A stretch of DNA of 14,309 nt from Pseudomonadota bacterium. Its GTDB lineage: Bacteria > Pseudomonadota > Gammaproteobacteria > GRL18. The position numbers and the translations under genes were made by a program. Below are positions 3-14,257 of this stretch, piece by piece (position 1 is the stretch's first letter; each line of letters begins with the position of its first letter). The notes beneath the pieces are model-generated. The model searched no databases. It was not told where the DNA came from and saw only the letters and a list, made by a program, of their open reading frames with translations. Location of the stretch: positions 1 through 14,309 of the forward strand of contig DAOVUE010000001.1 of NCBI GenBank assembly GCA_030632745.1. Reading direction: 5' to 3'.

Positions 3-68
3 CAACGCAGAGAACTGCAAAATGAATATCAATTATTATTAGACATGACATTGGAACTGGGTCAGTGA
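3..68 (+). CDS. C-terminal end of an upstream gene (partial)
   Basis: Frame 3 is open from the window edge to a TGA at 66-68 and gives 21 residues, beginning QRRELQNEYQ and ending TLELGQ. The composition (Leu, Glu, Gln, charged) fits an amphipathic helix or coiled-coil tail. Frame 1 gives a 13-residue Asn/Tyr-rich string to a TAG at 40-42, and frame 2 stops after seven codons, so frame 3 is the most protein-like. The start and product lie outside the window and no family can be assigned. It has the same orientation as the genes downstream but is separated from them by about 290 bp containing a repeat element. Confidence 0.5.
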   Translation, partial: QRRELQNEYQLLLDMTLELGQ

Positions 69-127
69 TGTGAATTGTTTTAATTTTATTGTTATTCCTG
101 CTCATTAACATCAAAAATAAATAGAGA

Positions 128-332
128 GGTACTTGCAAAACTGCTCTTAGCTTCCCCCTTTTACACTAGGTGCCCGTGGGGTAAAGGGGGACTGAGGGGG
201 ATTATTTTAAACTAATTAAGTTATTGATATTTATGAACTTAAAAATCCCCCTCTATCCCCCTTTTTACTAGGTGCCCTTGGGGTAAAGGGGGAGGTAAAA
301 AGCAAAAAAATTGGGAGTTTTGCAAGTACCGC
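128..332. repeat. MITE-like palindromic element, copy A
   Basis: The ends form a perfect 15-bp inverted repeat: GGTACTTGCAAAACT at 128-142 and its reverse complement at 316-330. Inside are two similar hairpins made of C5T3-4 and TA3G5 arms around a CACTAGGTGCCC-type centre, at about 153-190 and 253-292. A GGGGGATT at about 195-202 can also pair with AATCCCCC at about 244-251. The element codes for nothing. TAGAGA occurs immediately left (122-127) and, after two bases, right (333-338), a possible but weak target duplication. Its right end lies 32 bp before the start of the 288-aa gene, so it could supply or disturb that gene's promoter. A related copy begins at 14258. Confidence 0.8.
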
Positions 333-362
333 TAGAGATTATTAGTTTCAGGGGATTATGAT

Positions 363-1229
363 ATGAGTATTTTATTTCAAAAACCTGCAAAAAAAATTAT
401 TCTGTTGTTCATTTTTTTGAACGCCTTATGGCTTAATATTCAATCCATTAGTGCAGATGATCAATTGTTGATGTTAGCCGTTTCACTAGAAATACAACAG
501 CAGCAGGCCAGGGTGATTTATGAGAAAATAATAGCAACTGATGATGATGAACTTGAAAGAATTGAAAGTCTGTATAAGCAGCTTATTGAGCAATGCCCTG
601 ATACGCATTATGCACAACAATCGTTCTGGCTTCTATCCAGTTTATATCGCTTTGGCTGGGATAAACCAAAATGGCAGTCTATACAGGATCTTCTGCAAAA
701 ATATTTAGTTGAGTATCCGGATTCTAATGATGTCGATAAGATCAGAAAACGTTTATTAAATGCCTATGCAAATCTGCATGAATGGGAAAATTCTATTGAA
801 CTTTATAAGCAGATATTTATCAGTGAACCCTATAATAAACAAAACATATTAGACTATGCCTATCCTTATGCTGAGGCTTTACGCATGAATAATCAGATTG
901 ATCAGGCGATAATATGGTATCAGCGTTTCCTGACAGTAGCTCAGGATAAAGATGACTTGCGTATTATGTATGCTCATGACACATTGAATGCTTTACGTGA
1001 ATATACTGTATCTCTTGCCGCCCCAAAAATTCCAGTAAAAGAATTATCCTCTGTACAAATAGCTCAGCAATATATAAAACAAGGAAATATATTACAGAAA
1101 AAAGGGGATTATAGCGGAGCACTTCAAGCCTATAAAAATAGTTTAAAGCAACAGAAAAATTCGAGTTTGAATGATCGAGTTAAGCGCCTGGAAGCTTATT
1201 TGGATATTCGGAAAATTAAAAAGCCTTAG
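363..1229 (+). CDS. Exported TPR-like protein with a C-terminal shared helical module
   Basis: This is a 288-aa protein of unknown function. Residues 8-31 form a Sec signal peptide (KK, hydrophobic LLFIFLNALW core, SISA before the likely cut), so it should be periplasmic or lipid-free exported. Residues about 60-215 are helical repeats with features of YbgF/BamD-type TPRs: pairs of helices ending in P-D-S/T, an ALR-MNNQIDQAIIWYQRFL unit near 172-190. Residues 233-288 (GDYSGALQAY, RLEAYLDIRK) match the C-terminus of the 2,085-aa protein downstream and the N-terminus of the 604-aa protein. The ATG at 363 is chosen because AGGGG at 350-354 sits 8 bp upstream; the ATG at 358 stops after two codons. 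The stop codon lies inside the direct repeat that flanks the next inserted element. A general role as a protein-interaction partner of its neighbours is inferred from the TPR fold and the shared module. Confidence 0.88.
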   Translation: MSILFQKPAKKIILLFIFLNALWLNIQSISADDQLLMLAVSLEIQQQQARVIYEKIIATDDDELERIESLYKQLIEQCPDTHYAQQSFWLLSSLYRFGWDKPKWQSIQDLLQKYLVEYPDSNDVDKIRKRLLNAYANLHEWENSIELYKQIFISEPYNKQNILDYAYPYAEALRMNNQIDQAIIWYQRFLTVAQDKDDLRIMYAHDTLNALREYTVSLAAPKIPVKELSSVQIAQQYIKQGNILQKKGDYSGALQAYKNSLKQQKNSSLNDRVKRLEAYLDIRKIKKP

Positions 1230-1230
1230 G

Positions 1231-1386
1231 GCCGTGGAAAAAATAAATGTTCCAGTTTTACTTGCCCTTTTATCCAGCTTCTGCGTTGTAATAAAGGTTG
1301 CGTAGACTGACTATGCGCCCTTTATCACGCCTTGAATCTGAACAAAATTGCGGCGTAAAACTTGGAAAATTTATTATTTCCAAGGC
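1231..1386. mobile_element. 156-bp MITE-like element flanked by CCTTAGG direct repeats
   Basis: The arms at 1231-1261 and 1355-1386 are reverse complements at 28 of 32 aligned positions, with one gap; the outer ten bases are GCCGTGGAAA and TTTCCAAGGC. The same 7 bp, CCTTAGG, lies directly outside both ends (1224-1230 and 1387-1393), as expected of a target-site duplication. The interior holds a second, weaker stem (GCGTAG at about 1310 with CTATGC at about 1321, extended through TAAAGG and CCTTTA). There is no open frame of note, so movement would need a transposase supplied elsewhere. The left duplication overlaps the TAG stop of the 288-aa gene. The element differs from the one at 128-332. 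Confidence 0.75.
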
Positions 1387-1424
1387 CCTTAGGTTCTAAT
1401 GTATTTGATTAGAGGAATGAAATA

Positions 1425-4400
1425 ATGCTGGAAAATAAAGCACTGATATTTTATAAGCTAAAAGCTAATATTTTATTGGTGATTATATGGTTTCTTATAG
1501 TGACTGTTTTTTTTAGTCATGAGTCTGTGGCAGTATCATTTCCACTTGCTGTAAAAGTAGAAGCTATAACAAAAGAGGGTCATAGTAAACCACTGAACCA
1601 TGCTTATGTTCATATTGGAGGACGCTTTTCCACAACAGACAAGAAGGGAATTGCTTTTTTTGAAGGACTTCCAGCGGGGCAATATCAATTATTCATCCGA
1701 CATCCTGGTTATAAGTTAATAGAGCAGGACATCAACCTGGCTCCTGGTCCGCGTCAAACCATTGAACTGAGTTTGAGTCCCATTAGCTACATCAATTGGC
1801 ATGCAATAATACAGGTTGCTGATTTAGAGCAGCCCTTGCCGGGGGCTCAAATTATATTACAGCCTACTAATAATACTGCCAGTCAGTCTGCTTCTGTTAA
1901 TGTTATTTCGGGTTGGCAGGGTGATGTCCGGGTTCCTAAATTGGCTGTTGGAGAATACGAACTGCAAATTTCAGCTCCCGGATTTCTGCCGCTAAACAAA
2001 AAAATAGACATTATAGAGCCTCAAGCCGCGAGTATTATTGATAAGCCTGAAGTCGATGGAACTGCCATTGATATCTGTCGTGAATGGGGAGCTAATTGTG
2101 GTAAACCCGCAGCTGATGCCTGGTGTAAAGCACATGATTATGGAGATTCTGTTTCACATGAAGTAAAGCAGGATTCACCGCCGAGCAGAATTATTTCAAG
2201 CGGGAAATTATGCGAAGAAAAGCATTGTGATCGCATTATCAGTATTGCATGTGCACAAAAAAGTATTCATTTCTATATGCAGCAAGATTTTAAAACAGCG
2301 GCTCTTTTACTGAAAATAATTGATGCCCAGAGTGAAAGGCTCATACCTGATGCAAAAATACAGCTTGCTGAAACATGGCCAAATGGTTTGATTACAAAGT
2401 CTCATTCTGATAGGCGTGGTATGGTGAAGTTTAATCATCTTAAAGTCTCTAATGCAAATATGATTGATGTGGATAATCAGCTTGATATTTCACGTCGTTG
2501 GATTACAGCTCATGTTGAGGCTGAAGGTTATCACACAAAAAATGTCCCTGTTGTTTTGTCTGATAAAGCAAAAACTATAATTGTAAAACTTGATTCACTT
2601 CGTCCTCAGAAAGAGGTGGAGCCCAATGATAAATTGGCAACAGCACAGGAAATTCACTCAGGAGCTCCATTACACTTCAGCATCAATAAAAAAGCTGATC
2701 ATGATATTTTTAAAATAAAATTAGATCAGGCAGTGGCTCAGAAAATTACTATTGGTCCAGATAATGCTCTTCAGGTTCATTTGCGACTACTTGATAGTAG
2801 TGGAAAATTGCTCAAGGAAAGAGGCACACAGGTAGGAGAAAATAATACTATTAGTCAGAAACTGCGCAGCGGCACATACTATATAGAAGTTTCAGAATGG
2901 GGTGATAATAATTTTAATCCGGATGTTGCTATGACTTTAACAGTTGTTCCAGAATCTGCAGTGGATCCGAGAGAGCCTAATGACACGCTGAAAAGTGCTT
3001 TGCCTATCCAGCTTTATGAGCAGGTTTCAGGTTTAATCTGGCCCTTGGGTGATCATGATTTTTTCCGTTTGCAAGTGCCGCAGGCAGGTGTTTTAAGGCT
3101 CTATGAAACAAGCCATGGATTACAAAGACATGCCCGTTTACTTGACCATAATGGTAAATTGCTTGCAGAGCAGGGCGTTCATGCTGATAGTAATATGGAT
3201 TTTCAGGCACAAGTTCAACAGGCGGGTGTTTATTATATTGAATTTATGGAATGGGGAAATAATAATGCTTCGTTGATCCCTTACCGGTTTCGAGTGGATC
3301 TATTGCCTAATGATAATATAAATGATCCTCCATTGAAGAAAGAGGAGCTGTCTGCAGCTCGACTGCTGCCGTTGGATAGTATATTCAGCAGCACGCTGCT
3401 GCCTCAGGGTGATATTGATATTTTCAGGCTGAACCTTCCCGGTGCAGGTATTTTGCGAGTACAGAGTCATGGTTCGCTGCAGCGACACATTCGTATTTAT
3501 AATAAAGAAGGTAAATTACAGACAGAACAAGGTGTTCAAGCAAATCAAAAAAATAATCTTTCGTGGAATGTGGAAGCATCCGGCATTGCTTATATTGCTA
3601 TTGGAGAATGGGGAAATAATAACTGGTCCGCTGATGCATACACATTGAATGTCTGGTTTGAAGCGGCAGATGAACTGGACTTTCTGCAGCGTAATGATGA
3701 ATTTGGTCAGGCCGTTCCGCTATTAGCGGATCAGATAGTTCGGGGTACTTACCTGCCCAGGCGTGATCATGATATTTTCAGCATTGATGTTGATTTTCCA
3801 TCACAAATAAATCTGTCAGTGTTTTCTGAGATGCAAACGCATTTGCGAATTTTTGATGCACAGCATAAGCTGCTGCAGGAAAAAGGTGTTCAAGGCAGCA
3901 ATACAGCAATGCTGAAGTCTCAGCTTAATGCCGGAACGTATTATGTGATGTTAGGTGAATGGGGAGATAATAGTGCATCTGCATCGCCGTATGAGTTAAA
4001 AGCGGAGATTGTTCGTGCAGAGCCGGGAGAAACATGGCCTTTGGCTGATGATCCAATACGACACCTGAAAAATGGCGTAGCACAGGCTTTTTCCATTGAT
4101 CAAAATAATGATCGTGATCGGTTTTTATTTGATATGGAAAAACCTGGTGTGGTAACGTTAGTTCTAAGCTCTCCTTTACAGACAATGACTCGTGTATTTG
4201 ATGACCGCAGCAATAAAAAGTTATCTGAAACAGGACGACAGGCAAATCAATTATTAAAGTTACCTATTAAGGTAAAAGAAGCTACCCGTTTGCGTATTGA
4301 AATTACAGAATGGGGTAATAATAATTCCAGTGCGGAAAAATCCTTTATTATGCTGGATACGCAAGGCCGCAGCCTGGAAGCAGATGCTATCCAGATAAAA

Positions 4401-7400
4401 TCAAATTCTGAGGCTTCAAAAATGATTGATTTTGAACGTCACAGAATTAAATGGGCAGCAGCACCGCAACGTTGTGAAGTGGATTTAAATGCGGATGGTC
4501 AGATTGAACTCGTGTTAAATAATGAAGAGAAAAAGACAGGGCGTTTCCCGGATATGGGCTGGTATATCGTTGCAGCAACATGCTATGGCACACAAGGTCA
4601 GCAGGCAAAGCAGCAATTTTGGGTTGATACAACAGAATCTGCTGACAGAAAAGGTATGCTGATCTCTATTAATGAACCATCAAACAGGCGTCCGGTTGAT
4701 AAGCCTGTTACGCTGCAGGTACAGGCAATTAGTTTTGAGGCTAAGCGTATTGCCAGGGTTGAATTTTATTTAGACAATCAACTCATCAATACAGATTTTG
4801 AGGTGCCTTTCACCGCATCAGTGAACTGGCAGAATTTATCGTCTGAGCTGCATAGCTTAAAGGTTATTGCCTATGATAGTGATGGACAAAAAGCTGAAGC
4901 TAAACGAAAATTTAAATTATCTGAATATTTTTCTCTAACGCCTGAAGATGGAGCTGTTTTGTCAGGAAAAAATATTCGCATCAGTTGGACTGCTCCTGAA
5001 TTTGGTGCATCAAAGGTACGCTATCGTCCTAAAGGCAGTAAAGACTGGAAAGTGGTGACCGGGGAAAGTGCTTATCAGCGTTCAGTCATACTCAGTGATC
5101 TTGAAAGCAATATTGTTTATGAATTTCAGCCGCTGGGAGACAATGAAGCAGGACCCGTGCATCGTTTAACTCGAGTGAAAGGACTTGCCTTTGGTCAGCA
5201 GCGTTATGGTGCTAATGTTCGTCGTGATTATGATCAGAAAGTCGGCATCAGTGTACGTAATAATAGTGATGAGAATATGATGGTACGCCTGGAATGCGGC
5301 AAACCTGAAGATCCATTATTGCTGGTTGGATTTGTGGGTGATGGTTCTGAAGATGAGCCTTTCTCTCTGGAACCCGGAGAAGAACGACAATTTATGCTGG
5401 GTATCAGCGCCCAGGATGTTAATACACCTGATCACCGTTTTTTAGTGAAAATTGTTTCTGAAAATGGACTTAATGATGAAGCTGAAGTGTCGGTTAGAGT
5501 TCGTTTACCTCATATTGAACTGCTGTGGCAGGATCAGGGTATAGCAGAGGATGGGTATAGCCATCGTTATCGCTTGCGTAATGTGGGTGATGCCATTACC
5601 GATCTATCTGTGAGTTCTGAACACCCGGATAAAGTTGATATTTCTCCTACCGTGCAGCATGGCTTGCTGCCGTCTGGAAGCAGCATGAATTTTATAGTGG
5701 CACCGCATTTTTACGATGGTTTTAAAGCGGTAGAAACAACGCTTATTGCTGCTGGAATGGACAAACAGTTTAAGCAAAAATACGAAATGAAATTAAAACC
5801 GGGAGAGAGTGCCCGTCAAATATGGCTATTTCCAGGTATTGATCCCGGCAAGCCTGGAACGGATGAGGCTGATTTGATAAAGAGAGCCAGGCAGGCTGAA
5901 AATATGAACCCCTCCCTGATTAACTGGAGTCAACGTTTTAATGCAGAAGATCTGGATAATGATAGTCAAAATGATCGCTGGTCTCTAAAACAGGGCAATG
6001 TACTATGGGTTGGTGATGATACGGATGGAAATGCCAGTATTGATTTTGTTCATGCTGATATTGGTGATGATGGTATCTTTGAATACTCAGCCTATTTAGC
6101 GCAGGGTCGATGGCATAAAACTAATCTGGTTGAGGCCTGGCTGGAAATGGGATTTACCTTACCGTGGAATACAAATTCATATAAGGAGCATGATGTAGAT
6201 ATTATATTTAATAATGTTGTGATTGGTCGCATACGAGACAGTATTCCAGAAGGGAATTATACCTATCGTATACCACCTTCGGCATTACATTTTGATGAGA
6301 CGGGAATGCCGGTTGATAATCAGGTAGGAATTAAATCAAAACATTTAAGAGGCGGGCATTATGTTGTGAATAGTGATTTCCGTTTTAAATTCAGATTGAC
6401 GGCTACACCTGTGTGGACTGTTGCAAGTTCTGAACAGGAAGCAAGACAACGTGTGCGGGAAAATGCAGGGATTTCAACAGACTCAACGGATCTGAGTGTT
6501 GCATCATCTGGTCTTAAAATAATAGGACCAGAACAACCTGCAGCAGGTGATGATATGCTGGTAGAAGTACCATTACGCAATCTGGGAGCTATTTCTCCTC
6601 CAGAAACTCATGTGGCCTTGTTTCGTTCCCTGCCGGGAGGTAAACGTGAGGAAATTAATCGTGTCAGCGTTGACTATGTTCCATTGAATGGAAATGTTCT
6701 GGTTAATATCTCCTTTAAGGCACCCGGGGGTAAAAATACTATGATGGTTATTGCTGATCCGGACAACAAACTAAATGATAGTGATCATAATAATAATGAA
6801 GCTGTGTTTTTCCTGAATGTTGCCGGAGATAATACTCCGCCAGAGTTGAAGATTATTAGTCCGAAGGATAAATTAACTGAGACTGCAATAGTGAAACAGG
6901 GCCTGCTGGCAGTGCATCTTGAAAGTCAGGATGATCAGGGGGACAGTTTTGTTGAATTGTCTCTTGATGGAGGTTTGTGGCAGGAATTAAAGCTTAAAAA
7001 TAATAAAGCTGTCGCAGAATTACTTTTGCAGCCCGGCAAGCACCAGGTTCAGTTTAAGGCCAGTGATAAAAGTGGTAATACAAGCATAAAAAAACTGCTA
7101 TTGGAAAGTCAGGCGGTTAAACCAGAAATCAGTTTTCTAAAACCAGCTGCCGGTAGTAATATTAGTCAGCGTAGTACGGATATATTGATAAAGGGTTCAA
7201 CTGACATAGCTCTGGTGGGAATTCGTGTCAATAAGGGACCATGGCATAAAGCAACATTGCTGACGGCAGGATGGAGTACCAGAATACCATTAAGCTATGG
7301 ACTGCAAAATATTGAAGTACTTGCAGCGAATAAAAAAGGCATAGTGACATTACAGAATATTACAGTAAATTGTAATAAACAGGCGGGAAAAAATGATATA

Positions 7401-7682
7401 TGGAAAGAATCAACGGCTTCGGATCAAGGTTTATTATGGCCTGCCAATCGTCCTGATCTGGAGATTGATCTGTTTGAGCAGCAGAGTGGTTTATTGAAAC
7501 AACTGACTCTGAAACCATCTGAACGAGCGATAAAATTAATACAGGAAGCGGAACGTCGTCAGGCTTATCGGGATTTTGCCGGTGCCATGAATAAATACCG
7601 TGAAAGTTTATTACTGATGCCAAACCAGAAAATTGAAGATCGAGCCAATAGGCTGGAATTTTATTTGCAGGCTATTCACTAA
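1425..7682 (+). CDS. Giant exported multidomain protein with five PPC-like repeats and Ig/CARDB-like folds
   Basis: This is a 2,085-aa protein with no recognisable catalytic domain. The order is: signal peptide 1-36; two carboxypeptidase-regulatory/PEGA-like beta domains at about 38-118 and 122-200; a six-Cys module (C218, 225, 234, 263, 268, 276); a third such beta domain at about 289-392; five tandem PPC-like repeats at about 398-980, each with a (D/R)HDIF-like or DRFLF strand and ending in EWGxN(N/S), with the Glu at 491, 609, 728, 845 and 962; a DxNxDG loop at 1020-1025; Ig-like about 1077-1165; FN3-like about 1168-1245; another beta domain about 1266-1363; an acidic DLDNDSQND/GDDTDG stretch about 1508-1550; CARDB-like about 1690-1800; two more Ig-like domains to about 1983; and the shared helical module at 2033-2085. 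AGAGGA at 1411-1416 supports this ATG. PPC domains usually follow secreted peptidases; here they stand alone. An adhesive or scaffold role at the cell surface or in the periplasm is inferred. Confidence 0.9.
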   Translation: MLENKALIFYKLKANILLVIIWFLIVTVFFSHESVAVSFPLAVKVEAITKEGHSKPLNHAYVHIGGRFSTTDKKGIAFFEGLPAGQYQLFIRHPGYKLIEQDINLAPGPRQTIELSLSPISYINWHAIIQVADLEQPLPGAQIILQPTNNTASQSASVNVISGWQGDVRVPKLAVGEYELQISAPGFLPLNKKIDIIEPQAASIIDKPEVDGTAIDICREWGANCGKPAADAWCKAHDYGDSVSHEVKQDSPPSRIISSGKLCEEKHCDRIISIACAQKSIHFYMQQDFKTAALLLKIIDAQSERLIPDAKIQLAETWPNGLITKSHSDRRGMVKFNHLKVSNANMIDVDNQLDISRRWITAHVEAEGYHTKNVPVVLSDKAKTIIVKLDSLRPQKEVEPNDKLATAQEIHSGAPLHFSINKKADHDIFKIKLDQAVAQKITIGPDNALQVHLRLLDSSGKLLKERGTQVGENNTISQKLRSGTYYIEVSEWGDNNFNPDVAMTLTVVPESAVDPREPNDTLKSALPIQLYEQVSGLIWPLGDHDFFRLQVPQAGVLRLYETSHGLQRHARLLDHNGKLLAEQGVHADSNMDFQAQVQQAGVYYIEFMEWGNNNASLIPYRFRVDLLPNDNINDPPLKKEELSAARLLPLDSIFSSTLLPQGDIDIFRLNLPGAGILRVQSHGSLQRHIRIYNKEGKLQTEQGVQANQKNNLSWNVEASGIAYIAIGEWGNNNWSADAYTLNVWFEAADELDFLQRNDEFGQAVPLLADQIVRGTYLPRRDHDIFSIDVDFPSQINLSVFSEMQTHLRIFDAQHKLLQEKGVQGSNTAMLKSQLNAGTYYVMLGEWGDNSASASPYELKAEIVRAEPGETWPLADDPIRHLKNGVAQAFSIDQNNDRDRFLFDMEKPGVVTLVLSSPLQTMTRVFDDRSNKKLSETGRQANQLLKLPIKVKEATRLRIEITEWGNNNSSAEKSFIMLDTQGRSLEADAIQIKSNSEASKMIDFERHRIKWAAAPQRCEVDLNADGQIELVLNNEEKKTGRFPDMGWYIVAATCYGTQGQQAKQQFWVDTTESADRKGMLISINEPSNRRPVDKPVTLQVQAISFEAKRIARVEFYLDNQLINTDFEVPFTASVNWQNLSSELHSLKVIAYDSDGQKAEAKRKFKLSEYFSLTPEDGAVLSGKNIRISWTAPEFGASKVRYRPKGSKDWKVVTGESAYQRSVILSDLESNIVYEFQPLGDNEAGPVHRLTRVKGLAFGQQRYGANVRRDYDQKVGISVRNNSDENMMVRLECGKPEDPLLLVGFVGDGSEDEPFSLEPGEERQFMLGISAQDVNTPDHRFLVKIVSENGLNDEAEVSVRVRLPHIELLWQDQGIAEDGYSHRYRLRNVGDAITDLSVSSEHPDKVDISPTVQHGLLPSGSSMNFIVAPHFYDGFKAVETTLIAAGMDKQFKQKYEMKLKPGESARQIWLFPGIDPGKPGTDEADLIKRARQAENMNPSLINWSQRFNAEDLDNDSQNDRWSLKQGNVLWVGDDTDGNASIDFVHADIGDDGIFEYSAYLAQGRWHKTNLVEAWLEMGFTLPWNTNSYKEHDVDIIFNNVVIGRIRDSIPEGNYTYRIPPSALHFDETGMPVDNQVGIKSKHLRGGHYVVNSDFRFKFRLTATPVWTVASSEQEARQRVRENAGISTDSTDLSVASSGLKIIGPEQPAAGDDMLVEVPLRNLGAISPPETHVALFRSLPGGKREEINRVSVDYVPLNGNVLVNISFKAPGGKNTMMVIADPDNKLNDSDHNNNEAVFFLNVAGDNTPPELKIISPKDKLTETAIVKQGLLAVHLESQDDQGDSFVELSLDGGLWQELKLKNNKAVAELLLQPGKHQVQFKASDKSGNTSIKKLLLESQAVKPEISFLKPAAGSNISQRSTDILIKGSTDIALVGIRVNKGPWHKATLLTAGWSTRIPLSYGLQNIEVLAANKKGIVTLQNITVNCNKQAGKNDIWKESTASDQGLLWPANRPDLEIDLFEQQSGLLKQLTLKPSERAIKLIQEAERRQAYRDFAGAMNKYRESLLLMPNQKIEDRANRLEFYLQAIH

Positions 7683-7724
7683 TGACTATTGAGCAACTCA
7701 AGCCGTAAGCGGCTAACCATCTAC

Positions 7725-7874
7725 AAGTTACAGTAGAAGTATTATGGTGTCTGAATAATTTTGCTGAGGTCTTTGCAGCATGGATGCTGCAATGAAGCCC
7801 CCATGGATGGGTTTACGGCGTCCTCAGCAAGATTATTTAGATTCCATAGTACGGGTTTGTAAAATCTGTAACTT
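7725..7874. repeat. Palindromic repeat with branched stem-loop structure
   Basis: The outer ends AAGTTACAG (7725-7733) and CTGTAACTT (7866-7874) are exact reverse complements. Inside them, 7740-7769 and 7822-7851 pair at 25 of 30 positions, and four of the five differences become G-U pairs in the plus-strand RNA. The centre holds two small perfect hairpins, TTGCAGCAT/ATGCTGCAA (7773-7792) and CCCAT/ATGGG (7800-7811). The predicted form is a long stem carrying two arms. Together with a 5-bp hairpin at 7701-7714 (AGCCG/CGGCT) it fills almost the whole 225-bp gap between the giant gene and the 287-aa TPR gene. There is no coding potential and no U-tract, so it is more like a dispersed palindromic element than a terminator, although its RNA could affect messenger processing. 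Confidence 0.75.
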
Positions 7875-7907
7875 AGAAGCTTAAAAGATAAAACAGGAAA
7901 TCATGTG

Positions 7908-8768
7908 ATGCAAAAAGAAAAAAATTATTTACTCTATGCCATATTGTTTTTTGTGCTGGGATTGCTTGCAACTTCCGCTTTGAGTAAAGAGTTAACCAAG
8001 GAAATGACAATGGAACAACAATTTTCACAAGTACAGGCAGCCCTGGATCAAGGCAATATTGAGCAGGCACGTAAGGTGCTGCTAGCCATGATTGAAAGTG
8101 ATGCTGAAAATAAAGATGCCTGCAATTTACTGGGTAATATTGCCTTATTAGAAAACGATCTGAAAGGAGCAGAAAAATATTATGATTGTGCACTGAATGC
8201 TGATCCTCTATTTGCTGAAACGTATAACAATCTGGGAGTGCTGGCATTAAAACGAGGTGACTTAAATGCGGCTGTTATTCAATTTCAAACGGCAGCAAAA
8301 TTAGATAATCACAATGCCAATGCCTGGTCTAATCTGGCTCAGATTGCTCTTTCATCAGGTAAAACTGCAACAGCAAAAAAATACTATTATAGAGCCATTA
8401 GTGCAGATCCTGCGCATGTACAGTCACAATATAAATTGGCGGTACTTTTAATCGGTGAGAAACAGCATCAGGAAGCAATAAAAGTACTAAAAAAAGCATT
8501 GCGTCATTCTCCCTCGGAGAAAAATTTGCTTTTCCTGATGGCGACGCTGCAGGATGATATGGGTAATTTAAATGAGGCCAGAGATAGCTATATAAAAGCT
8601 CGAAATGCGGGTAATAATACGCCCTATTTAGCACTTTATCTGGCACAGATTTATCTGCGACTCAATCAAATACCAGCAGCAAAATTAGAATTGCAGGGAA
8701 TTCTTTCTGATACAAAAGGGAATCAGGAGATAAGAGAAAAGGCACAACAATTGATTAAAAACCTTTAA
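7908..8768 (+). CDS. Exported TPR protein
   Basis: This TPR protein is 286 aa from ATG 7908, or 287 aa from the in-frame GTG at 7905. AGGA at 7895-7898 is 9 bp from the ATG and 6 bp from the GTG, so either start is possible. Residues about 7-26 are a hydrophobic signal peptide or N-terminal anchor (YLLYAILFFVLGLLATSA). From about residue 36 to the end there are roughly seven tetratricopeptide repeats; the clearest are at 74-104 (LLGNIALLENDLKGAEKYY), 107-138 (NNLGVLALKRGDLNAA), 141-171 and 175-203, with the usual W/L-G-Y-A-P spacing. TPRs bind proteins and scaffold complexes. The fold resembles that of PilF or PEP-CTERM-type TPR lipoproteins, but there is no lipobox Cys. The next gene starts 13 bp after the stop, so the two are almost surely co-transcribed, and this protein may serve its 919-aa neighbour. 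Confidence 0.88.
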   Translation: MQKEKNYLLYAILFFVLGLLATSALSKELTKEMTMEQQFSQVQAALDQGNIEQARKVLLAMIESDAENKDACNLLGNIALLENDLKGAEKYYDCALNADPLFAETYNNLGVLALKRGDLNAAVIQFQTAAKLDNHNANAWSNLAQIALSSGKTATAKKYYYRAISADPAHVQSQYKLAVLLIGEKQHQEAIKVLKKALRHSPSEKNLLFLMATLQDDMGNLNEARDSYIKARNAGNNTPYLALYLAQIYLRLNQIPAAKLELQGILSDTKGNQEIREKAQQLIKNL

Positions 8769-8781
8769 AGGTTGGTAGAGA

Positions 8782-11541
8782 ATGAAAATTCAAAATAGCT
8801 CCTATCTGAATAGAATGGCTATAATTCAGCATTTAGCAGAGAATGTTTTTATCGTTATATTTTTATTAACGGCTCTGCTTTTACCATTGCCTGTAACAGC
8901 AGAACCTATTGGAGACCTGCGCCTGCAGCAGCAAAAAGACTTGAGTGATCTTAGAGATATATACCATCAGAAGGTACAATCTGTTCCAGGTTTAGTGAAA
9001 GAAGATGGCTCCATAAACACTAGTGATCAGGAATACCAGCAAATACTGCAGAACTACAAAAAACAAAAACAAGAGATACAACAGGATTACAACAAGCAGG
9101 ATGTTCGTGGTGATGAAATAAAGAAACTACAGGAAACCTATGGTGAAAATGGTATTAGTCTTACAGGTAGTGAACCTAAAGATGTTCGTGCGGATGTCGA
9201 TCTGACGGCTAAATCTTCAGATATGGCTGAAAAAGTAGCTGAGGATTGGAAAGGTCGGGGTGATAAGGTTAAATATGATCCTAAACTGGGCATTTATATT
9301 AATGAGACAACTGATACCACTCTATGGCTTCCACCGGATAAAGATCAACTCGAATCCAGAGGTGCTTATCATGATGCATTCTCAACACCGGGCGGTAAAA
9401 AGGAGACCGGCGTAAGAGGAACAGAGGCAATAACTGACCCTGAAGGTTATGTTCTCGACAATGAGAAAAAATTCATTCATGCAACAGATGATTTTAATAA
9501 GTACTCTGCAGATGATAGTTCCTCAAAAAATCAGTTGGAAAGAGAAATGGCTCTTAAGACTATGGGGAAAAGTGTTAATAAAGCTGCAAAAAATGCTCGT
9601 CAGGATTCAGAGCTGGTCAAACAATCTGAACATCTGCGGAATTATAAAGATGAGTTTGAAGCAGGTATTGCAGCTCTTGGATCCAGTCCTGAAAAGCAGG
9701 AACAGGATATAAAAAAGTGGACAAATAAAGCCGATCAGCAATTACAGAATTCCTATGAAGTGGCTCAGAAACGTTCAAAAAGAATTAAAGATATTCGTCA
9801 ACATCTTGCTGATTCAGTGTCTAAATCAAATGATGAACATGATACTGCTGATAATATTGTTAAGCGTAATGAAATGTTGACAAAAGAGAATTCTGATGCT
9901 CGAGCAGCTAATGACAAAGCCAGAGAAAAAGCGGGATTGGCCGCCGCTCCACCTCCCGGGAAAAAAGTTTCTCCGCAGGATGACGATGCCGATAAGACTC
10001 AATCCCCTTTTGTAAAGAAGAAAGGCTCTGGAGAAACTGAAACTGAAATTGAAACTGATAGTCAGAAACAACAGAAAAAAAAGCTTAAACCTGCCTGGAA
10101 ACCATCAACTGATAAAGATGTTAAAGCAAAAGACACTAAAAAGTCTGGTATGGAAACAGACTCATCATCAGCAAAGAAGTCTCAAACAAAGAAGGATAGT
10201 GATACTGCATCTGATAATAAAAAAACATCTACCACTAAAAAACAGGTATCTGAAGACAGACCAAAGCCAACGTCTAAAATAGATAAAGATGGCAGTCTAA
10301 TAATAACGACGACTAAAACCAATAAGACGAAAAATGATCAGGGTGATATTACTCATACAAGTTCTAGTGACATAAAAATAGATAAACATGGACGTGTCAG
10401 CACCACTGAAACCGATACAGGCATCACTAAGAAGGCATCATCTAATACAACCGTTAAAAAAATAAAAATAACTGAAAAAACACCCTGGAAAACGACTACC
10501 AGTAGTGAGTATGATAAAAGCAAAAGATTTGACGGCAGCGATGATGATGATAAAAATAAAGAACCGCAAACGCCCCCCAAAGTTTCAGTAAAAATTGCCG
10601 GAGGAAATCTATTTGATCCTGTCAATGGGGCAGAGTATACCAGTTCTAAGTCTGGTGCTACCAAGACAATAGGTGGTGTTGAAATTGAGGCTGAACATAA
10701 GGTCGAGGTTGGACAACATAGTGCGACAGGAGGCTGGGATGTCAGCGTAGACAAGGAAGGGCTGAAAGCCGGAGTCAACGTTGCAGGGGAAGCCAATTTA
10801 ATAAAATCCACAACGGAAGTAAAAGTGGATAAACAAATTACAGAAAATGTGTCAGCGGGTGGAAAAGTGGTGCTTACTGGAAAAGTAGGTGCTGAAGGAA
10901 AAACAACGGCACAAGTCGCCATCAACAAGGATAAAATAAGTGCTGAAGCGGGAGCAGAAGTTTTTGTTGGTGGAAAAGCAGATGTTGCTGCGGAAGCGCA
11001 GCTTAAAGTATGGGGTGTTAAGTTAATAGGCAAAGGTCAGGCCGAAGTTTCTTTTGGTGGTGGTGCTACAGCTAAATTGGATGCTGAATTATCCTGGACT
11101 AAAATACGCATGGGTGGAAAACTTGCTGCAACTCTTGGTTTAGGTGCCGGTGGAAGTACGTCAGTGGAAATAGATGCTACGCAGTTAATTACCGGTGTTG
11201 ATATGGATAAAGTGAATTTGCAGAGTGCTGCTGCAGACGGTCTTTTAAAGGTTTTAAAAGATATTCGTGATGCTCGTCTAAAATTACCGGATAAGAAAAA
11301 GTTTTCTGATATACGAAAACAATTGCAGGAAAAATCAGAATGGTATGCCAGACATCCACAAAAAGATAAGCAGGGCAAACCTATCAATATTAGTGATTCA
11401 ATAGCTAAGGACCTTGGCCTGAAAAAAGGAAAGAATCAGGCTCATGTCGTGGTTCAGAAACAGCAAAAAGATCATTATTGTACTAATAGGCCAGTAATAA
11501 CAGCACCAGTAAGGATACCAAAAATTATTAAGTCTAAATAG
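8782..11541 (+). CDS. Large exported protein: coiled coil, possible NTase-like motif, Lys/Ser/Thr-rich disordered region, Gly-rich beta domain
   Basis: This is a 919-aa protein that I do not recognise. It has a signal peptide at 1-40 (hydrophobic core 22-36, PVTA before the likely cut). Residues 44-120 are charged helices rich in Gln and Lys, likely coiled coil. Residues 125-234 look globular and contain GS(129-130)-x7-DVD(138-140)LT, DTTLW (178-182), TPGG (202-205) and DPEGYVLDNEKKF (219-231); the GS...DxD pattern resembles the nucleotidyltransferase signature, but weakly. About 235-385 is helical. About 394-600 is Lys/Ser/Thr/Asp-rich low complexity and probably disordered. About 601-803 is a Gly/Ala/Val-rich repetitive beta region (AGAEVFVGGKADVAAEAQLK type). 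About 810-919 is basic, with the protein's only cysteine at 900. It starts 13 bp after the TPR gene, with a weak GGTAGAG-like ribosome site, suggesting translational coupling. The layout fits a surface or extracellular structural protein; an effector or toxin is less likely. Confidence 0.85.
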   Translation: MKIQNSSYLNRMAIIQHLAENVFIVIFLLTALLLPLPVTAEPIGDLRLQQQKDLSDLRDIYHQKVQSVPGLVKEDGSINTSDQEYQQILQNYKKQKQEIQQDYNKQDVRGDEIKKLQETYGENGISLTGSEPKDVRADVDLTAKSSDMAEKVAEDWKGRGDKVKYDPKLGIYINETTDTTLWLPPDKDQLESRGAYHDAFSTPGGKKETGVRGTEAITDPEGYVLDNEKKFIHATDDFNKYSADDSSSKNQLEREMALKTMGKSVNKAAKNARQDSELVKQSEHLRNYKDEFEAGIAALGSSPEKQEQDIKKWTNKADQQLQNSYEVAQKRSKRIKDIRQHLADSVSKSNDEHDTADNIVKRNEMLTKENSDARAANDKAREKAGLAAAPPPGKKVSPQDDDADKTQSPFVKKKGSGETETEIETDSQKQQKKKLKPAWKPSTDKDVKAKDTKKSGMETDSSSAKKSQTKKDSDTASDNKKTSTTKKQVSEDRPKPTSKIDKDGSLIITTTKTNKTKNDQGDITHTSSSDIKIDKHGRVSTTETDTGITKKASSNTTVKKIKITEKTPWKTTTSSEYDKSKRFDGSDDDDKNKEPQTPPKVSVKIAGGNLFDPVNGAEYTSSKSGATKTIGGVEIEAEHKVEVGQHSATGGWDVSVDKEGLKAGVNVAGEANLIKSTTEVKVDKQITENVSAGGKVVLTGKVGAEGKTTAQVAINKDKISAEAGAEVFVGGKADVAAEAQLKVWGVKLIGKGQAEVSFGGGATAKLDAELSWTKIRMGGKLAATLGLGAGGSTSVEIDATQLITGVDMDKVNLQSAAADGLLKVLKDIRDARLKLPDKKKFSDIRKQLQEKSEWYARHPQKDKQGKPINISDSIAKDLGLKKGKNQAHVVVQKQQKDHYCTNRPVITAPVRIPKIIKSK

Positions 11542-11606
11542 AAGTACCGGCATCATCTACTGAGGCTGACCGTTCAAGTTATTTTATTCAATGAGAGGAA
11601 ATAGAA

Positions 11607-13421
11607 ATGGTAAAAAAACACACACTGATTCCAATGCTTGCTATGGGCATGTTATTGTTTACTGCAATTGCTATGGCTGAGATCAATATTGACAGCAGCG
11701 ATCAGGAGATTGCAGATCAACTTGATCAGCAGGCAAAAGCGTTTATTATTTCAGGAGATTTTGTCTCAGCATTAGAAAAACTGCAGGCCGCGGAAGTTAT
11801 GTCACCTGACGCGGGGCGGGCACAACGTATCCAGAGACTTAATTCTTTTGTTGATATTCGTAAAGGTATTAAGCCATCAGTGACTCCGGACCAGGCACTG
11901 AGTCAAGCGACAGAAAAAGCCCCAGTTAGCCCTTCTCCTGCCGTAACTCCTGGCAATAATCAGGCTTCTATTCCACCTGTCGCAGAAAAAAAACTAATAC
12001 CGGCCGCGAGTGAAGAAGAACGTCGTGTTCGTGCGGTAATTGATACTTTATTACAATTTTTACATGCCAATATTGATGATGCCGCTGAGTTGATTATGGG
12101 TCCTGATTACCAGCTGACTCAGGTTGAGCAGTCATTTCATGCGGAGTTTGAAACTATAATACTTCGTTCTGATAATAATAATCATCTGGATATGGGAAAG
12201 TTGAAGCTTATTTTATCGCCCGAAGCCAATCATCAAATGAACTTTGTAGTGAAATTGAATAATGCATTTAAGATTGTAGAAAAAGGTAAAGAGATTGCTG
12301 ATTTTTCAATGGACTCCTATGATATACACGGTATCTGGAATGAAAAACTAGAAATATTTGAAGATTTTTCAGCAAAGATACAAAAACCAATATTATCTGT
12401 TAAAGGGAATGAGCCTGGAATTATACGTGCAGATCAATTTGTTTTATTACAAAATCTAAAGCGTACTAATTCTTCTGCTCAGGCTGCAGATAATCAGTGG
12501 CAGCAAAATATGGAAAGTGTTCTGACTAACGTGTATTTTGAAGTTTTAGATAAACAGGGAAAACAACAATTACTGTTTAAATTGGATGACTTCAATTTAA
12601 AAGCTTCTGTATCAGGGAGTAATTTTGAACGTCTGGCAGAATTAAGAAAACAGATGCAGGAAAATTTACTTGTCATTGCAGCTGAAGAAAATTCTCAGAA
12701 TGCTAAAAAAATGATGAAAAAGATACAGCTGCAGGGTATTGAACTATTTAACCTATTAGATATTTCTGATACATCAGCGACTTTGAAAGGGCTTTCATTT
12801 GCAAGCCAGGATGGAAATATGTCACTTAAAGAAATAGGTTTTGGATTAATGGCGGGTTCACAAGCGCATAATAAAGGTGAACTAAAAATCCATCTTATTT
12901 CTTCTGAACTTAAAACTTCGGGGGCTGCCGAGATACCTCCGGGTATGCTGCCAAATAATATTGAATTTAATTTAAGTATTGAGAATTTTCCATCAGGTGT
13001 GGTTAATTTAATCAGTGAAATAAGTGATAATCCGGGTAAGAAAGAAGAAATATCGCGCCGCTTTATAGAATCCATGCAGCAGAGTAAGACAAACATGTTA
13101 ATAAATAAAGTCGCTATTGATTTTGATGATTATGCATTGGATATGGCTGCTAATGCCCTGGTAAATATAAAGTCGCCTTTTTTCACTACGGGTGAAGCGA
13201 ATATGAGTATTGTAAATTTTCCAATGATCATCGATAAAGTAAAACAGTTTGGTGCACCTGCGGAAATTAATATGATGCTTTCTGCTATGTCACTAGTCTC
13301 TATACGAAGTGAAGAAAATGGAAAGGTGACGGATCAGTTTGACTTTATCTGGGCAGAAGATGGAAAACTTCTACTGAACGGTAAAGACGCTATGATGTTA
13401 TTGGGTCCACCTGCAAAATAA
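11607..13421 (+). CDS. Exported protein with an N-terminal shared helical module and a large uncharacterised C-terminal domain
   Basis: This 604-aa protein has a clean signal peptide (1-24, MLLFTAIAMA before EINI). Residues 35-90 are the shared module: SGDFVSALEKL, then QRIQRLNSFVDIRKGIKP, close to the C-terminus of the 288-aa protein. A Pro/Ala/Ser-rich linker at about 91-130 leads to a 470-residue alternating alpha/beta domain with repeated strand patterns (MGKLKLILSPE, FSMDSYDIHGIW, GELKIHLISSEL, ANMSIVNFPMIIDKVK). This texture recalls YdgA/DUF945-like or AsmA-like periplasmic proteins, but I cannot confirm homology. I see no cysteine in it. AGAGGAA at 11594-11600, 6 bp before the ATG, is the strongest ribosome site in the array. 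The gap after the 919-aa gene is only 65 bp with no hairpin, and a terminator follows, so this is probably the last gene of the operon. Confidence 0.87.
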   Translation: MVKKHTLIPMLAMGMLLFTAIAMAEINIDSSDQEIADQLDQQAKAFIISGDFVSALEKLQAAEVMSPDAGRAQRIQRLNSFVDIRKGIKPSVTPDQALSQATEKAPVSPSPAVTPGNNQASIPPVAEKKLIPAASEEERRVRAVIDTLLQFLHANIDDAAELIMGPDYQLTQVEQSFHAEFETIILRSDNNNHLDMGKLKLILSPEANHQMNFVVKLNNAFKIVEKGKEIADFSMDSYDIHGIWNEKLEIFEDFSAKIQKPILSVKGNEPGIIRADQFVLLQNLKRTNSSAQAADNQWQQNMESVLTNVYFEVLDKQGKQQLLFKLDDFNLKASVSGSNFERLAELRKQMQENLLVIAAEENSQNAKKMMKKIQLQGIELFNLLDISDTSATLKGLSFASQDGNMSLKEIGFGLMAGSQAHNKGELKIHLISSELKTSGAAEIPPGMLPNNIEFNLSIENFPSGVVNLISEISDNPGKKEEISRRFIESMQQSKTNMLINKVAIDFDDYALDMAANALVNIKSPFFTTGEANMSIVNFPMIIDKVKQFGAPAEINMMLSAMSLVSIRSEENGKVTDQFDFIWAEDGKLLLNGKDAMMLLGPPAK

Positions 13422-13437: not shown

Positions 13438-13478
13438 GAGCAGAGTCAATGTTATCATATATTGACTCTGCTCTTATT
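13438..13478. terminator. Hairpin terminator between convergent genes, probably bidirectional
   Basis: There is a perfect 13-bp stem, GAGCAGAGTCAAT at 13438-13450 and ATTGACTCTGCTC at 13461-13473, around a 10-base loop. TTATTGTTTGCCTTTTA follows on the plus strand. On the minus strand the stem is followed by ATAAATT, a poorer T-tract. It lies 17 bp after the 604-aa gene and 15 bp after the end of the opposing Prx-Grx gene, so it can end both transcripts. The plus-strand direction is the better supported. Confidence 0.82.
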
Positions 13479-13487
13479 GTTTGCCTT

Positions 13488-14216
13488 TTATTTAAAGTGC
13501 GCTTCCAAATCATCAGCACCACCAATCAGCTGACCATCCATAAAAATTTGTGGTGTAGTATGAGCACCGCTTAGAGCCGTTAATGAACGATTTGTGACCG
13601 CTTGACTTAATTCAACTTCTTCAAAAGGTAAGCCCTTACTATCTAATAATTCCTTGGCACGAGTACAATGCGGACAACCCTTACGAGTAATAATGGTGAC
13701 AGTAGGCAGTGCTTTGGCTTGCGGGTTAATATACTTTAACACCGTGTCAGCATCTGATACACCAAACGGATCGCCATCCACCTCGGGTTCAATAAACATT
13801 TTCTCTATTATGCCGTTATCAACAATCATGGCATATCTCCAGGAACGATCGCCAAAACCCAGGTTTTTTTTATCAACCAGCATACCCATACCTTTTGAAA
13901 ATTCACCATTGCCATCCGGCAGCATGGTTATTTTTTCTGCACTCTGATCATCCTGCCAGGCATTCATCACAAAAGTATCGTTGACTGATAAACAATAAAT
14001 ATCATCGATGCCATTATCTTTAAATACTGGATACAGTTCATTATAGCGGGGTAAATGACTGGATGAGCAGGTAGGTGTAAAGGCACCGGGCAGTGCAAAA
14101 ACAACCACTTTTTTATTATCAAATAAATCACTGCTGCTGACATCTGCCCACTCGCTGTCCTGACGTGTTTTAAATATTACAGATGGGACTGACTGACCTT
14201 CACGATTTTCTAACAT
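13488..14216 (-). CDS. Peroxiredoxin-glutaredoxin fusion protein (Prx5-type peroxidase)
   Basis: This is a 242-aa cytoplasmic thiol peroxidase that reduces hydrogen peroxide and alkyl hydroperoxides, with its own glutaredoxin domain passing electrons from glutathione. The Prx5-like domain covers about 4-162: PGAFTPTCS holds the peroxidatic Cys50, and Arg126 in SWRYAM is the usual active-site arginine. The glutaredoxin domain is about 171-242, with the dithiol motif CPHC (181-184), the cis-proline loop TTPQIF (220-225) and the glutathione-site GGADD (232-236). The length and domain order are those of known gammaproteobacterial hybrids such as Haemophilus PGdx. GGAG lies 7 bp before the ATG. 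No signal peptide is present. It is convergent with the exported-protein array and probably unrelated to it. A copy of the 128-332 repeat begins 42 bp upstream of its start and could overlap its promoter; I see no clear OxyR site. Confidence 0.96.
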   Translation of the reverse strand: MLENREGQSVPSVIFKTRQDSEWADVSSSDLFDNKKVVVFALPGAFTPTCSSSHLPRYNELYPVFKDNGIDDIYCLSVNDTFVMNAWQDDQSAEKITMLPDGNGEFSKGMGMLVDKKNLGFGDRSWRYAMIVDNGIIEKMFIEPEVDGDPFGVSDADTVLKYINPQAKALPTVTIITRKGCPHCTRAKELLDSKGLPFEEVELSQAVTNRSLTALSGAHTTPQIFMDGQLIGGADDLEAHFK

Positions 14217-14257
14217 TGAATATCTCCATTTTTGTGTGTTTAAGTTTTTGTTGTTAA

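Follow-up and report, generated by a model that had tools for sequence, protein, structure and literature searches.

The stretch of DNA considered here, referred to as the window, is an entire contig (C191) of 14,309 nucleotides from a gammaproteobacterial genome (GenBank assembly GCA_030632745.1, contig DAOVUE010000001.1), whose parent assembly comprises 2.07 Mb and is 71.5% complete. It carries five plus-strand genes, g1 to g5, whose products look exported. The results favoured the interpretation that g1-g5 constitute the exported half of an envelope system of roughly 12 genes, probably an envelope-spanning, ATP-binding cassette (ABC)-powered assembly that puts together or presents a giant stalk protein, g2, along with its partner, g4. 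That g1-g5 belong in one system with an ABC module is very probable, judging from gene content and gene order, and the mechanism of the assembly is presented below as a model deduced from the sequences.

Association of g1-g5 with an ABC module

Both halves of the proposed system were found in one contiguous cluster, together with genes for a von Willebrand factor A (VWA) protein and an S41 peptidase, in G156, a genome of the window's class that is 98% complete, and at four Sedimenticola loci. The Sedimenticola loci presented the order c3, g1, g3, g4, g2, followed downstream by c6 (VWA), c7 (ABC ATPase), c8 (FtsX-type permease) and c9 (FGE-sulfatase-like), and further downstream by c10 (glycine-zipper lipoprotein), c14 (coiled coil, with a lipobox recognised by eye) and c11 (S41/PDZ peptidase). 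The order c8-c9-c10-c14-c11 was seen again in G407, and that from c6 to c11 in G392. The G156 cluster comprised g2, g3, g4, an opposite-strand open reading frame (ORF) of 862 aa, g1 and the ABC module. It was verified that the Sedimenticola permease contained the FtsX C-terminal domain PF02687 (45 bits vs. a cut-off of 25.5), besides a sub-threshold match to the MacB core, and that the ATPase matched PF00005 at 94.7 bits, with L_ocin_972, DevA and LolD as the top NCBIfam rows, each below its own cut-off.

Traces of the same module were recovered from the window's own genome. Bases 3..68 of the window (plus strand) correspond to the 3′ end of c14, the coiled-coil lipoprotein gene of the ABC module, of which 21 codons and the stop remain, and they match the c14 profile to its last position (E 3.4e-6 among 778 window peptides). 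When this fragment was aligned with seven homologues, 0/2000 shuffles reached the score for six of them, and the seventh, an ORF cut short, gave no match. Moreover, contig C401 of the same genome carries c7, c8, c9 and a cut c10 in the order of the relatives, 36-50% identical to them, with values of 48-50% for the ATPase and 47% for the permease (residues 12-610 of 610). Since the end of c14 stands at the window start and this operon is found on C401, the ABC module most likely lies directly 5′ of g1, with a miniature inverted-repeat transposable element (MITE)-like repeat between them. This palindromic repeat (125..333, no strand assigned), located between c14 and g1, is bounded by 15-bp terminal inverted repeats, the one at one end being GGTACTTGCAAAACT. 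A second copy starts at 14257 and runs to the contig end at 14309, and probably caused the assembly break there. The sequence-only reading had started the array at position 363 and had treated the five genes as a self-contained system lacking an ATPase or transporter. This absence holds for the five genes themselves, but the system includes an ABC ATPase and a permease on C401, and its genes extend upstream of 363 to the c14 remnant; these findings, together with the permease co-occurrence described below, speak against self-containment.

The composition of the ABC module raised the question of whether its target is the cell wall, as in the case of FtsEX-EnvC, with g1-g5 being its regulators or wall-bound scaffolds. 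An FtsX-type permease alongside coiled-coil lipoproteins and a PDZ peptidase would fit such a role and, in Pseudomonas, the LbcA-CtpA pair, a tetratricopeptide repeat (TPR) lipoprotein with a C-terminal processing peptidase, is reported to control wall hydrolases. However, the cluster genes scanned contained no wall hydrolase family (two G156 genes being outside the scan), and a 2,085-aa stalk of beta domains would be left unexplained, making a wall-acting module highly improbable.

Some additional features were noticed among the module genes. The motif ADALEG occurs in one to three copies near the start of the VWA protein in 5/5 cases with the start available (L025, 16314-18452, and L059, 16568-18823, among them) and as a single copy close to the end of three c14 lipoproteins, in L025 (23426-23995), L030 and L059 (6572-7117); it is possibly a shared binding tag. 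In G156, a minus-strand gene between those of the VWA protein and the ATPase (L059, 12108-16493) encodes a 1,461-aa protein in which NHL-like repeats and a metallopeptidase-like motif, AHELFHAVQ, were both recognised by eye.

Conservation of the g2-g3-g4 core

The central genes of the window are g2 (1425..7682, plus strand), g3 (7905..8768, plus strand) and g4 (8782..11541, plus strand). The 2085-aa product of g2 is stalk-like and includes carboxypeptidase-regulatory-like, PPC-like, Big_7 and CARDB family matches, a conserved core and a helical tail at residues 2017-2082; most of its conserved stretch at ~1250-1690 had no Pfam match. The g3 gene encodes an exported-looking TPR protein of 287 aa, and the 919-aa g4 product is discussed below. 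Protein searches with g2, g4 and g5 scored the ~8000 best candidates each, so that all counts are lower bounds, and they listed at least 108 homologues for g2, at least 21 for g4 and at least 4 for g5, where the g2 and g4 figures count the window's own protein. When GTDB contigs were scanned with the g2 alignment, 47 pattern matches were obtained, which resolved into 27 loci, one of them in the named strain Sedimenticola selenatireducens DSM 17993. Locus labels are to be taken with care in some cases, as L037 and L038 are an identical contig sequence binned in two differently labelled genomes.

Homologues of g2, g3 and g4 were adjacent in six other genomes: the four Sedimenticola genomes, G156 and the Ectothiorhodospiraceae locus L026, where g2, g3 and g4 were found and the contig end cuts g4. 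From these arrangements, the conserved core is g2-g3-g4, read as one functional unit, and g1 changes place. In Proteobacteria, this unit is, by gene content, the companion of the ABC module, which consists of the ATPase and FtsX/MacB-type permease, the VWA and FGE-like proteins, two lipoproteins (one glycine-zipper, one coiled-coil) and the S41/PDZ peptidase. A scatter of homologues without any co-location would have spoken against a common system; instead, the genes were found together. The earlier proposal that TPR proteins organise two large proteins in an envelope assembly agrees with this adjacency and with the gene fusions described below; the supposition that the five genes in this order form a conserved unit does not, as only the g2-g3-g4 core is kept, g1 moves and g5 is rare. 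In L043, a 491-aa ORF (3446-4920, plus strand) follows g2 at the expected g3 site, and the g3 and g4 profiles both fail to match it.

Within the window's relatives, the distribution was narrow. Among 57 related genomes, g4 and g5 were each found in 1/57, the window's own, and g2 matched 7/57 at E 1e-3; in the six other genomes, the matches were to short domains. These genes were possibly gained by transfer or repeatedly lost elsewhere.

Co-occurrence of the permease with g2

The Sedimenticola permease, which was itself drawn from one of the eight positive genomes, was used as a query against 28 g2-bearing genomes, corresponding to 26 of the 27 loci (L038 omitted) plus G156 and G077. A full-length permease was found in 8/28 (L024, L025, L026, L027, L028, L030, L043 and G156), all of them proteobacterial and with an unfused g2. 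The other 20/28 gave no match at 1e-10; they comprised 17 with fused giants (L047, labelled Proteobacteria, being one), L035, truncated at the contig end, L041, whose unfused g2 has a 715-aa neighbour, and G077, with a weak g2. As a control, 369 genomes of the class yielded 26 permease matches at 1e-10, of which only those in G000 and G156 were full-length and the other 24 partial. In 369 class genomes, taken as the same sample, the g2 core was strong only in G000 and G156, and weak in G077.

These results bear on whether the five proteins alone form a passive surface or matrix structure, such as an adhesin or sheath, with the ABC module as a mere neighbour, an interpretation implied by the sequence-only reading. 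The domain content of g2 resembles that of adhesive or stalk proteins, no enzyme family was detected among g1-g5, and fused giants exist without this permease. However, the permease tracks unfused proteobacterial g2 genome by genome, and the g2-g4 and ABC modules are contiguous in several genomes, so that a purely passive structure is improbable.

The shared helical module of g1, g2 and g5

The sequence-only reading had attributed a common module to the array. This was borne out for g1, g2 and g5, and not for g3 and g4, which gave no hit. The same helical module forms the C-terminal end of g1 and g2, and a relative of it lies near the start of g5. A profile built from g2 tails of other genomes recovered g2 at E 4e-18 and g1 at E 3e-12, and did not reach g5 at 1e-3. 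In local alignments against 2000 shuffles, the observed score was reached by 0/2000 for g1-g2, 0/2000 for g1-g5 and 1/2000 for g2-g5. The tail was also present on g2 and g1 in G156 and G391 (L026, L081). At the four Sedimenticola loci, its carriers were g2 and the c3 protein. Its occurrence on g2 and on a partner in these genomes suggests a docking module.

The g1 gene (363..1229, plus strand) encodes an exported-looking TPR protein of 288 aa, matched by the c4 profile at E 5e-32, with the shared tail at residues 227-287. The g5 gene (11607..13421, plus strand) encodes 604 aa, in which the helical module near the N-terminus is followed by a region without a family. Of the g5 relatives from the protein search, one shared 99% identity with the window's g5, and none stood at a placeable locus. 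The contig scan with the g5 alignment gave 355 pattern matches with 0 confirmed, the g5 profile found no match at the 27 g2 loci, and the sequences that it matched weakly in G156 (E 6e-4 to 1e-3) were the g1 and g2 homologues that carry the shared tail. The g5 gene is a rare, lineage-specific addition to the system. A structure model of g5 from four sequences reached a predicted local distance difference test (pLDDT) score of 43, too poor for fold comparison. It was also noticed that g2 contains a six-cysteine insert (window 2046-2252, residues ~208-276), which had weak matches of 26-31% in short frames of two genomes of the same class (G024, G027).

Fused giants and the WYCTNRP signature

A relationship among g2, g3 and g4 was also apparent from proteins in which g2-like, TPR and g4 parts are fused. 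In P0070 (2,770 aa), a g2-like part (residues 168-1831) is followed by a TPR match at 1936-1987 (28.8 bits vs. a cut-off of 25), then by the g4 N-domain (profile E 6e-42; BLAST 3e-24) and, at the extreme end, by the g4 signature. L031 (3,236 aa) is a weaker version of this fusion, and the g3 profile itself matches it. The signature, with a consensus of approximately QxDWYCTNRPxIxxxxxLP, was present in 15/21 listed g4 homologues; of the six without it, P0127 carries the label partial, P0129 is a short sequence, and P0130-P0133, of the Desulfomicrobium type, have Ser at the Cys column.

It was observed that WYCTNRP also lies inside giant g2 proteins of metagenome-assembled genomes labelled Planctomycetota, Synergistetes and others. 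Counts were made on 99 g2 homologues, after nine of the 108 were dropped, namely the distant giants P0104-P0107 (24-25% identity, at most 23% coverage) and the short matches P0108-P0112. A strict pattern recovered the signature in 24/99, and a relaxed pattern that catches variants in 38/99. Among the 24, it was placed 628-787 residues from the end in 23, and 24 residues from the end in P0070. The helical tail was found in 35 of the 99 homologues, the signature in 38, neither in 26 and both in 0. Moreover, the signature occurred in 23/2,639 distinct locus ORF sequences, shadow ORFs counted, and the 24 records behind these ORFs were g2 homologues, g4 homologues or the 715-aa protein of L041, which is encoded after a g2 and shares only the C-terminus of g4.

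The stalk-plus-partner arrangement could also describe a weapon of polymorphic-toxin type, contact-dependent or secreted, with g2 as the stalk that presents an effector located in g4 or at the C-terminal side of the fused giants. The PT-TG domain exceeded its curated cut-off in 3/6 fused giants scanned (P0059, P0062 and P0075, chosen because the homologue list gave PT-TG for them and 12 others of the 108), ~150-165 residues behind the signature. A stalk with C-terminal cargo is an architecture likewise described in PMC3482391, and in g4 the N-domain and C-terminal signature are conserved and the middles are unlike between groups. However, toxin families numbered 0 in g1-g5 and 0 in the 21 listed g4 members. 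PT-TG was not reported in the other three giants (P0053, P0071 and P0094), whose C-terminal parts align with one another across phyla and are not polymorphic, nor was it found in the window. A weapon is, on balance, unlikely.

Domains and structure model of g4

The g4 protein comprises a conserved N-domain (8908..9966, plus strand; residues 43-395), which is the part fused to g2 in P0070, a Lys/Thr-rich middle without confident structure, an amphipathic beta region (10579..11121, plus strand; residues 600-780) and the C-terminal signature, here DHYCTNRP (11470..11493, plus strand), containing C900, the sole cysteine of the window's g4. In the beta region, residue alternation was 2.8 vs. 1.5 in shuffles (0/500), in a low-confidence part of the model. 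A barrel is not proposed: pore proteins and porins occupied many of the top PDB rows, but with TM-scores of ~0.03-0.08 to the model and on a low-confidence beta meander. The Pfam and NCBIfam scans gave only chance-level rows for g4 and g5 (E ~0.09, far under the cut-off) and no enzyme or toxin family in g1-g5, and the PHROGs scan of g1, g2, g4 and g5 returned a single chance-level row, for g2, and none for g4 or g5.

Within residues 82-210 of g4, a candidate nucleotidyltransferase fold, G129, S130, D138 and D140 are kept in 20/21 homologues (one gapped), and D178 in 21/21. Nucleotidyltransferases present a G-S...D-x-D...D pattern in which the spacing from S to D is longer than the 7 residues of g4; L031 lacks DxD. 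The VIA rows for g4 were taken as a lead only. A broader version of the favoured interpretation would be a multi-phylum envelope machine. In Proteobacteria, its dedicated type VII ABC motor would assemble and expose the stalk with a WYCTNRP partner, which would have an enzyme-like, possibly nucleotidyltransferase, N-domain and would target other cells or the surroundings; elsewhere, stalk and partner would be made as one fused giant. Such a generalisation is, for the moment, doubtful.

Gene array and its 3′ end

All five genes of the array (ORFs of 288, 2085, 287, 919 and 604 aa) have a hydrophobic N-terminus, as judged by eye, and the Pfam and NCBIfam scans located TPR repeats in g1 and g3. 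A terminator-like hairpin (13438..13473, plus strand) with a 15-pair stem and a folding z of -7.7 vs. shuffles closes the array. The earlier description of five exported-looking genes, two of them for TPR proteins, ending at a strong terminator was thereby confirmed. From the end of c14 through g5, the intergenic gaps measure 294, 195, 222, 13 and 65 bases, and g1-g5 may form a single transcript. Terminator-like sites overall showed no excess (12 in the window vs. 10.2 in shuffles), and an operon marked by strong promoters was discarded, with 36 promoter-like sites vs. 41.4 in shuffles. The hairpin lies between convergent genes and is common to both g5 and an ordinary peroxiredoxin-glutaredoxin fusion gene (13488-14216, minus strand), whose product had partial peroxiredoxin or glutaredoxin relatives at six loci in viral contigs.

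Proposed mechanism and its weak points

In the proposed assembly, the g1-g5 products would cross the inner membrane by the Sec pathway, and the TPR protein g3 would bridge g2 and g4. The helical tails of g1, g2 and g5 may dock parts to one another or to a common partner. The ABC pair would convert ATP hydrolysis into movement of periplasmic parts, as in type VII ABC mechanotransmission, and such movement would serve to put the g2-g3-g4 complex together, display it at the surface or release it there. In genomes that have the S41 peptidase, this enzyme would trim a component, perhaps at the conserved g4 C-terminus.

Several observations weigh against this interpretation. L027 and L043 have g2 without adjacent g3 or g4 on the stretch covered, and the g2 of L043 has neither helical tail nor signature. 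Searches of the window's 71.5%-complete assembly did not recover the VWA gene (c6) or c3, those for the S41 peptidase gave 28-29% matches only, and the gene after c14 is S41 in relatives and g1 here. The g3 profile does not reach P0070, the g4 model is weak (pLDDT 58), and a Foldseek comparison of this model with PDB and viral models returned nothing at E 1e-3. Fused giants are among the 20 genomes without the permease, which indicates that the ABC module is not required everywhere. Finally, the nine permease-bearing genomes are not independent events, as Sedimenticola accounts for four of them and, by its label, for a fifth (L043).

Significance and comparison with known systems

No description of the system was found in the literature searched, which left out most subscription papers and all preprints, and the string YCTNRP was likewise absent from it; the system is apparently undescribed so far. 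If the favoured interpretation is true, it would represent a new kind of surface machinery, equipped with an ABC pair of its own and with a stalk present in genomes whose labels range from Sedimenticola to Planctomycetota and Synergistetes, and five 'orphan' exported proteins would be explained by the other half lying on a broken contig. The existence of fused and split forms, the strongly conserved WYCTNRP and the member in Sedimenticola selenatireducens DSM 17993 make it testable.

Some known systems share part of this composition. The g2 repertoire of carboxypeptidase-regulatory-like, PPC and Ig-type domains resembles that of large Gram-negative surface proteins of the Kustd1514 type, although the g2 match spans 157 residues at 22.6 bits vs. 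a cut-off of 1400. In PT-TG polymorphic toxins, as in some fused giants, a long presenting stalk is followed by PT-TG and a further C-terminal region, whereas the window's stalk and partner are separate genes, without a toxin family or PT-TG. The LbcA-CtpA-like pairs of TPR adaptor and S41 peptidase recall the co-encoded TPR proteins and S41/PDZ peptidase of the relatives; however, many more parts are involved here, and the system peptidase was not found in the window's genome.

A further parallel would be with the type VII ABC systems (LolCDE, MacAB-TolC, FtsEX-EnvC, YbbAP-TesA), with which the module shares an ATPase near L_ocin_972, DevA and LolD, an FtsX-domain permease and coiled-coil partners. 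The MacA, TolC, LolA and EnvC families had no match in the ten Sedimenticola genes scanned, and the Sedimenticola ABC pair failed the equivalog cut-offs of TIGR02212 (LolC/E; 35.4 vs. 362.45 bits), MacB PRK10535 (118.4 vs. 966 bits) and LolD (134.7 vs. 307.75 bits). Unlike in those systems, a 610-aa permease is accompanied here by FGE-like, VWA, glycine-zipper and S41 partners and by a giant stalk.

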